From Adhaeribacter arboris (GTDB lineage Bacteria; Bacteroidota; Bacteroidia; Cytophagales; Hymenobacteraceae), in contig NZ_PYFT01000001.1 in NCBI RefSeq assembly GCF_003023845.1, positions 2,418,001-2,482,000 on the forward strand: a DNA stretch of 64,000 bases, in the 5' to 3' direction. Positions within the stretch are counted from its first letter, which is position 1. Every line of letters starts with the position of its first letter. Position numbers and translations under genes: made by a program. Positions 32,096 to 33,730 of this stretch are shown here, piece after piece. The notes beneath the pieces are model-generated. The model worked only from the letters and a program-made list of their open reading frames with translations. It was not told the DNA's origin and did not search any database.

Positions 32096-32187
32096 AGCTC
32101 AATTCTACCTAAAGTACTTAGCTCGTATGTTAGCATTTGCTATCGAACGTAGGTTAAAAATAAATAAATTACTGACAAAACAAACCA

Positions 32188-32366
32188 GATAGAAGGGATA
32201 GGGTGTACTTGGCCAGACACATATAGATGATGTCGCCGCATAGAATTTCCGCCCTTCTATCCACTTTCTTAGAGCTTGAACAGTACCTAGGTCCATTTGG
32301 AGGAGACCGAATCAAAAGCGAGCAAAAGCGAAGAAGAGAGTTAGCTGGTTTGAAGAAAAATTAGCC
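32188..32366 (+). ncRNA. Candidate IS110 bridge RNA
   Basis: IS110-group elements encode a structured bridge RNA in the left end that pairs with target and donor DNA. Here the leader has a 10-bp basal stem (GATAGAAGGG 32188-32197 with CCCTTCTATC 32252-32261), suited to a first loop. After it comes ACAGTACCTA (32280-32289), exactly as at the right end of the element (33470-33479), followed by a GGTC/GACC hairpin (32290-32308). That is the arrangement of a donor-binding loop whose left guide copies the donor flank plus core. Limits are approximate and the target loop is not assigned. Confidence 0.4.
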
Positions 32367-32367
32367 T

Positions 32368-33423
32368 ATGGAACCACCCGTACTAAAGCAGGCCCTCGGA
32401 ATAGATGTGGCCAAAGATTCTCTTTCCCTTTGTTTGGGCACCCTGACCCAGGATTTGGAAAAGCAGTTTATAGCAGGCTCCGACGTGAGCAATGATGACA
32501 AAGGCTTCCAAAGAATGGAAAAATGGCTAGTCAAGCTCTCTGTTCACCCGCAGAAGCTAGTGGTGGTAATGGAAGCAACCGGTGTATACCATGAGGCACT
32601 AGCAGTGTACCTGCATGAGAAAGGATATACCGTCAGTGTGATGCAATCCGGCAGAGTAAAGCGCTACGCTCAAAGCCTGAGCCAGCGTTCTAAGACCGAT
32701 GCTTTAGACTGTAGAATGTTGGCAATGTTGGGTTGTGAGCGGAAATTAACACCATGGTCTCCGCCGGATAAGACGTTGCGGCACCTGAAAGCCCTGAGCC
32801 GAGAGCGCTCCTTTTTACTGAAGGAAAAGAACGTAGAGAAAAACCGGCTACACGCCATAGAAACTTCTGCTTACAGCAACCCAAAGGAAGTGAAGCGCCA
32901 GGCCAAGCGGCTGAAGTTGGTGGAGGTACAATTGCAGGAGATTGAAGCGGAGATGAAGGATTTGGTAGACGGGGATGCAGCTCTGGGTAAAAAAATCCAG
33001 TACCTGGAAAGCATACCGGGAATATCTTTCCTCTCAGCGGCAACAGTGGTTGGAGAGACTTGCGGCTTTAAGGAGATCACCAGTGCTAAACAACTGGCAA
33101 GCTATGCCGGCTATGATGTAGTGCTTAAGGAATCCGGCACCTTCCGAGGCAGCACCAAAATAAGCAAGAAAGGAAATAGCCATCTCCGGAGCATACTCCA
33201 TATGCCTTCCATGACGGCAGTGCGAGTCAATCCTACCTTGAAGCAGTTTTACAACCGACTCAAGCCCAACAAAGCAAAGCCTATAATAGCTCTAGTAGCC
33301 GTACAGCGAAAACTACTGCTGCTCATGTACAGTTTGTACAAGAAAAATGAGTACTATAATCCGCAGTTTGAAAAAAAACAGCAAGAGCCCAAGCCCTTGC
33401 TGCACAGGATAGAGGCAATTTAA
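32368..33423 (+). CDS. IS110-family transposase (DEDD plus Tnp_20)
   Basis: 351 residues. The N-terminal RuvC-like DEDD domain shows Asp13 in GIDVAKDSL, Glu69 in VMEATGVYH, and Asp111 and Asp114 in KTDALDCRMLA. A coiled-coil linker (about 145-205) leads to the Tnp_20 domain with helix-hairpin motif LESIPGISFLSA and the catalytic-type Ser256 in ESGTFRGSTKISKKGN. All key residues are intact, so it could be active. It would recombine DNA as a dinucleotide-core recombinase guided by the bridge RNA. Confidence 0.95.
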   Translation: MEPPVLKQALGIDVAKDSLSLCLGTLTQDLEKQFIAGSDVSNDDKGFQRMEKWLVKLSVHPQKLVVVMEATGVYHEALAVYLHEKGYTVSVMQSGRVKRYAQSLSQRSKTDALDCRMLAMLGCERKLTPWSPPDKTLRHLKALSRERSFLLKEKNVEKNRLHAIETSAYSNPKEVKRQAKRLKLVEVQLQEIEAEMKDLVDGDAALGKKIQYLESIPGISFLSAATVVGETCGFKEITSAKQLASYAGYDVVLKESGTFRGSTKISKKGNSHLRSILHMPSMTAVRVNPTLKQFYNRLKPNKAKPIIALVAVQRKLLLLMYSLYKKNEYYNPQFEKKQQEPKPLLHRIEAI

Positions 33424-33514
33424 AAATTGACATCTTCCTAAATTTGTTAAAATAAACTTGACTTTTAACACAGTACCTATGTCGCACTTTAATGTGCTTC
33501 AGGTGTAATTATAG

Positions 33515-33730
33515 CTAGTTATTATTTACCTGTCTGTTAAATATTCCAAGTGTCAAAAGTCCTGTTCCAAAAAGTATTGAACCTCCTACAAACGGGAAAC
33601 CGGCACCAACTAAATCTTCTAAGCTTGCTGACCAAAGAAACGGAAAGCAAAATAACATTCCAAAAAGTCCTGTCAGCATTGTAATAATGGCTATAGCATT
33701 AATAATCGTTTTAATTGATTTATCAGTCAT
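33515..33730 (-). CDS. Small membrane protein, two helices
   Basis: 71 residues with helices at about 9-32 and 42-62, ending in a polar tail (NRQVNNN). The Gly/Phe-rich hydrophobic parts and short acidic link (SASLEDLVGAG) look like a genuine small inner-membrane protein. I do not recognise a family. It lies just beyond the right end of the IS110 element and points toward it. Confidence 0.55.
   Translation of the reverse strand: MTDKSIKTIINAIAIITMLTGLFGMLFCFPFLWSASLEDLVGAGFPFVGGSILFGTGLLTLGIFNRQVNNN

Follow-up and report, generated by a model that had tools for sequence, protein, structure and literature searches.

The window analysed here, a stretch of 64,000 nucleotides from Adhaeribacter arboris, contains an IS110-group element whose leader is very probably a bridge RNA, the two guides of its first loop addressing an attC-like site and its donor loop carrying the right end of the element together with the core. 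The ends of the element, the conserved structure of the RNA, the covariation between guides and targets and the cassette-array nature of the target are all read directly from the nucleotides, while transcription, binding of the RNA, pairing with the donor, a circular form and the exchange of strands are steps that we infer. It seems that a mobile element here exploits a second mobile system, with a guide RNA spelling the cassette recombination sites of the same genome. The features are listed in Table 1.

Table 1. Features of the element, its leader and its target (window coordinates unless a locus is named)
Feature	Position	Strand	Remarks
IS110-group element	32122..33478	+	1357 bp including core CT at both ends; alignment of L001, L002 and L003
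Core CT	32122-32123 (left), 33477-33478 (right)		
IS110 recombinase, 351 aa	32368..33423	+	DEDD residues D13, E69, D111, D114; serine S256 by alignment to IS621
Bridge RNA core	32188..32340	+	target loop followed by donor loop; pairs counted across 24 leaders, RNAalifold
Target-loop stem	32188-32197 / 32252-32261	+	GATAGAAGGG with CCCTTCTATC, 10 bp
Donor-loop stems	32264-32270 / 32334-32340; 32274-32277 / 32326-32329; 32290-32293 / 32305-32308	+	
Left target guide GTGTACTTGG with core-pairing CC	32203..32214	+	covaries with left flank over elements
Right target guide TCGCCGCAT with core-pairing AG	32233..32243	+	covaries with right flank over elements
Left donor guide ACAGTAC with core CT	32280..32288	+	identical letters to right end 33470-33478
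Proposed right donor guide CGAG	32319..32322	+	complementary to left end CTCG 32122-32125
TATGTT, -10-like promoter half	32126..32131	+	putative; would form in the circle
TTGACT, -35-like half of circle promoter	33458..33463	+	putative
Left half of interrupted attC-like target, CCTAAAGTACTTAG	32108..32121	+	outside region common to copies
Right half of interrupted attC-like target (right target and hairpin)	33479..33515	+	
71-aa ORF stopping at attC-like site	33515..33730	-	presumed cassette gene, from layout
Xer/IntI-like recombinase loci	L166:726-2168 (G000:C1:6676226-6677668); L230, L231, L232		

The element, its ends and its recombinase

The host genome (7.25 Mb, two contigs) holds two further copies, L002 and L003, beside the window copy, L001. 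L002 differs from it in one base of 1357, and L003 is 74% identical. In the alignment, the sequence common to all three runs from CT-CGTATGTT (from approximately 32122) through ACAGTAC-CT (33477-33478). The three copies of this genome interrupt one repeat at identical bases. The core CT at the right end is present in all of the 27 relatives whose element ends were compared. The original prediction placed an IS110 element at 32106..33479; the nature of the element stands, but the copies move its left end 16 bp inward. TACCTA at 32106, proposed as the left end, lies outside the region common to L002, L003 and the window, being target DNA, and was dropped because the copies disagree at that position; once the left end is shifted, the ends of L002 and L003 agree with those of the window copy. 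A core at 32117 (GTACTT) was also considered, and was dropped after free repeats gave the target as GTACTTGG-CT.

The transposase is intact, as had been predicted, with both IS110 domains, the RuvC-like DEDD domain and the Tnp domain (PF01548 and PF02371), above the cut-off. Its residues D13, E69, D111, D114 and S256 align with D11, E60, D102, D105 and S241 of IS621 (catalytic residue numbering from an excerpt of PMC11208158). The best match among solved structures is the IS110-type recombinase ISCro4 (PDB 9t56; 134.6 bits), and IS621 scores 124.1 bits. The gene is preceded by 246 noncoding nucleotides (32122-32367) and followed by 55 (33424-33478). Loci L190, L191, L193, L206 and L218 are truncated or decayed copies in which the left end and at least one target loop (in some, both) survive although the element is no longer intact.

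The exact 10-bp match between leader and right end, on which the prediction was built, is found at 32280-32289 and 33470-33479. These are the only two occurrences of ACAGTACCTA in the window (mean chance expectation 0.04; none of 100 shuffles had two copies). At the right end, the last of the ten matching bases (33479) belongs to the target (L003 has ACAGTACCT-TT at that place), and the shared stretch is therefore 9 nt, ACAGTAC with the core CT. Joined ends would read TTGACT-N17-TATGTT, and the pattern TTGnnn-N17-TATGTT is present in 25 of 26 elements.

The leader, a probable bridge RNA, and its guides

Twenty-four leaders were aligned; 13 have a single target loop, and 11 have two (in the latter the unit adjoining the donor loop was used). 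Five helices were drawn by hand, and pairs were then counted over the aligned leaders. Paired bases occupy 97.3% of 672 cells, with two-sided changes in 15 of 28 pairs, while controls with partners slid by 1-3 columns yield 46-56% pairing and 1-6 pairs with two-sided changes. Four of five structural measures were reached by none of 500 shuffles; in the fifth (further pair types) 49 of 500 shuffles did as well, and this measure is not exceptional. Moreover, RNAalifold, unaided, recovers the drawn helices among its 38 pairs. Folded alone, the window leader is only moderately better than shuffled sequences (z -2.1 and -2.3), and the case for RNA structure is therefore made from the comparison of leaders. 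The 10-bp basal stem (GATAGAAGGG pairing with CCCTTCTATC) and the short hairpin following the match (GGTC at 32290-32293, GACC at 32305-32308) are both recovered as predicted, and the structure is conserved in the aligned leaders. The original view of the leader as a bridge RNA is likewise supported, by the IS110 domains, the ISCro4 and IS621 homologues, the compensatory changes and the covariation of guides with targets.

No convincing target guide had been recognized before, but both are present in the first loop and covary with the flanks. Sixteen elements had guides, of which the near-duplicates L012 and L045 were excluded, leaving 14 for the permutation test (analysis A3 was also without L002, L012 and L045). 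Guides and their own flanks give 175 matches, compared with 130.4 (sd 7.4) for permuted pairs, and none of 20000 permutations reaches this value. With one element per guide pair (9 distinct pairs) the values are 116 and 82.6 (sd 6.4), again with 0 of 20000. Guide boundaries were placed by eye on the leader alignment and were identical for own and swapped pairs.

Within the host genome, a compensated change is seen in L003, which has GGACT in both guide and target, at the place of GTACT in L001 and L002. The guide shared by L001 and L002 matches the three occupied sites of the genome at 14, 16 and 15 of 18 positions; among 6240 CT-centred sites in the rest of the window the top score is 13, and 14 or more are found in only 9 of 40 free repeats (best 17). 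The guides of L005 and L012 differ from those directed at the repeat and fit their own target, ATCCGGTACAAG. This sequence is the common right flank of L005, L012 and the truncated L018, which lie near each other on G002:C3, and it is unlike the repeat. The flanks of L005 are the same as those of L035 from Adhaeribacter aquaticus DSM 16391. The 9 distinct guide pairs mean that the clade naturally re-addresses its guides, and its members could serve as they are for experiments on the rules of targeting.

In the donor loop the left guide is identical to the right end and the right guide is short, both being nearly invariant over the relatives (CGAG in 24 of 24 leaders). This arrangement fits donor guides, whose pairing is proposed from identity, guide and right end hardly varying. 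It is quite unlikely that second loop and right end match because both are copies of a conserved direct repeat bound by a protein, with RNA guidance on the target side alone. Such a repeat would agree with the near-invariance of both ACAGTACCT copies over the relatives, but the leader copy occupies an internal loop between two covarying helices, which is the place of the donor guide in IS621 (PMC11208160, in excerpt). Less probable still is a structured leader that regulates the transposase gene, as an attenuator or a protein-binding site, carrying no guide and resembling the flanks incidentally. The leader does directly precede the gene, and a search of it against Rfam gave no matching family (two irrelevant matches were below gathering scores); however, regulation does not predict that loop segments covary with flanking target DNA (0 of 20000), and the layout is the same as in IS621.

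Fifteen flavobacterial loci were parsed (Maribacter, Zobellia, Kriegella and others: L037, L038, L040, L041, L043, L044, L047, L050, L051, L056, L200, L206, L208, L218 (L225) and L220 (L227)) in which two target-loop-like units and a hairpin precede one donor loop, and the guides differ between the upstream and downstream units. With some doubt, such a leader may be read as a bridge RNA that offers a choice of two addresses and could lead one element to two target families. The upstream unit keeps the inner helix and has guide-like segments of its own; its covariation is weak, with two-sided changes in 3 of 14 predicted pairs. In L038, L041 and L044 the right target starts with AAG and seems to fit the upstream loop; several targets starting with ATGA seem to fit the downstream one. 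For left targets (n=14), the upstream loop fits better in 9 loci and the downstream loop in 3, with 2 ties. Of 20000 permutations, 1306 for the left target and 856 for the right reached the own score of the upstream loop, and 14335 and 20000, respectively, reached that of the downstream loop; none of these results is significant, and the site fit is suggestive only. L039, at a contig end and outside this test, speaks against it: there the AAG-starting right target fits neither the downstream guide nor the remnant of the upstream loop. Phrase searches of the literature returned no account of a leader with two target loops; if real, these relatives would extend the abilities of programmable recombinases.

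In L044 the left flank (L044:1115-1147) has the sequence ACACAGTAC-CT-CGTATG and resembles the right end of the element itself, as though it came from a donor-donor or tandem event; this donor-like flank fits no guide.

The target site and the cassette arrays

L002 and L003 have a motif in common in their right flanks, and it is found in 14 places of the genome at no more than one mismatch. Twelve of these places are within copies of a repeat that reads CTAACGTACTTGGCTA-hairpin-TAGGTGTGGTTAGC, two being the flanks of L002 and L003 themselves and ten being uninterrupted; a covariance model was built from these ten. Against this model, the joined flanks score 57.9 bits (L002), 40.5 (L003), 26.0 (L006, same genus), 16.6 (window; 32108-32121 rejoined with 33477-33515, E 0.0004) and 15.4 (L034, Pontibacter), and those of L005 and L012 give no match. 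The best score elsewhere in the window is 3.6 bits. The site in the window stands alone, has diverged and scores lowest among the three occupied sites of its genome.

The model finds at least 50 places in the genome at E up to 1, at least 44 of them below 0.006; these are lower bounds, as 150 of 3074 first-look candidates were scored, and 10 of the 44 are seeds of the model. Among the 44 repeats there are 27 neighbouring pairs within 4 kb (random placing gives 1.05 on average and 7 at most in 2000 draws). All 27 pairs are on one strand, and in 26 intervals the longest ORF is codirectional with the array, the exception being the interval that holds the IS copy L002.

Among 40 repeats examined there are 17 near-identical pairs, and in 13 of them the 140 bp before the site are 99-100% alike, with identity stopping at GTT plus 0-3 nt. 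Integron-type recombination leaves this kind of trace at G-TT. These 13 cassette-sharing pairs form four cassette families, and the remaining 4 pairs are alike in the repeat alone. An identical 115-aa ORF is found twice within one array. The one-strand arrays, the codirectional ORFs and the GTT breakpoints together lead us to read the target as the attC-like site of gene-cassette arrays. The box consensus of attC is RYYYAAC and GTTRRRY; the former is present in 11 and the latter in 8 of 41 repeats, AAC...GTT being present in 40 of 41, and the wording "attC-like" was chosen because most repeats lack the strict boxes.

Arrays (L154-L163) are located on G000:C1 near 0.13, 0.37, 0.52, 2.84, 2.97, 4.58, 5.20, 5.67 and 6.68 Mb, and identical cassettes are common to several arrays of this one Bacteroidota chromosome. 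In a crude test, an ORF of at least 100 aa starts just past the site in 14 of 25 relatives and at 239 of 1000 control positions; the window and L003 both fail it, the ORF just beyond the window's site having only 17 aa. A search of the 71-aa ORF against NCBIfam gave no match.

It is quite unlikely that the bridge RNA is real but has for its target, instead of a cassette site, a common palindromic repeat of the REP type such as IS621 uses. The hairpin repeats are short (approximately 58 bp), mostly without strict attC boxes, and REP sequences are targeted by IS621 (PMC11208160, in the part consulted); a REP-like target, however, accounts neither for the single strand of all 27 neighbouring pairs and the codirectional ORFs of 26 of 27 intervals, nor for identical cassettes that are shared by several arrays and diverge at GTT, nor for an array that holds the same 115-aa ORF twice. 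The arrays and the GTT breakpoints made a REP-only target unlikely, and it was rejected.

On the cassette-site reading, the two first-loop guides spell both strands of one attC-like arm, GTACTTGG-CT-ATGCGGCG, and in the second loop the right end of the element is repeated together with the core. The RNA-led recombinase may then recombine the target with the circular element at the CT core, by which the element would enter the recombination site of a gene cassette. The insertion would split the attC-like hairpin and probably lock the cassette in place, while excision would join the ends and form a promoter for the RNA.

The arrays make one ask by which recombinase the cassettes of Bacteroidota are mobilized. 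At four loci, spread over three genomes (G000, G003 and, twice with partial genes, G002), a 480-aa Xer/IntI-like tyrosine recombinase is encoded 515-755 bp upstream of attC-like matches and codirectional with the cassettes. Near three further Xer/IntI-like loci (G001, G005 and G006), one of them at a contig end, attC-like matches are weak or absent. The array-side recombinase has 20 residues against 62 positions of the integron-integrase profile and is below the TIGR02249 cut-off, and the test for a complete integron found no IntI with the IntI-specific additional domain beside an array. A full-length integron-integrase match (297 bits) with an internal stop codon is located at G000:C1:1659408-1660301 (L144, L167), far from the arrays found.

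Relation to known systems

The closest described layout is that of IS621 from E. coli, also of the IS110 group (PMC11208160, in excerpt), with which the window element shares the DEDD and Tnp domains, a target loop followed by a donor loop in a long leader, the CT core, a joined-end promoter (predicted here) and repeats as targets. The elements differ in the target, which is a REP sequence for IS621 and a Bacteroidota attC-like cassette site for the window element, and in the right target guide, which here spans up to 9 nt in the permutation test. The element offers a Bacteroidota IS110 bridge RNA in which both target guides and the left donor guide are readable, as are the core and the ends of the element.

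The target arrays resemble CALIN (clusters of attC sites without an integrase) in the tandem repeats on one strand, short codirectional ORFs and duplicated cassettes that break at GTT. Unlike CALIN, they have a weak box consensus and, near one array, a recombinase without the IntI-specific stretch. Bacteroidota are named among integron-bearing phyla (PMC9668308, in excerpt), and complete integrons are described as few in Bacteroidetes in the part of PMC9024848 consulted.

A limited literature search for attC together with IS110, covering the openings of abstracts, returned no IS110-group case, which is not proof of absence. In the IS1111 group, ISKpn4 and ISPst6 are RNA-guided and target attC sites of gene cassettes (PMC11187229, in excerpt). 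These elements and the one described here are similar in address, inserting into attC or attC-like sites, but belong to different groups: the noncoding RNA region is downstream of the gene in the IS1111 group and upstream of it in the window element, where the downstream region is only 55 nt. Subterminal inverted repeats of 7-17 bp are a further mark of the IS1111 group. In the window element, the group with the upstream RNA is directed at the recombination sites of cassettes, a niche already known from its sister, the IS1111 group.
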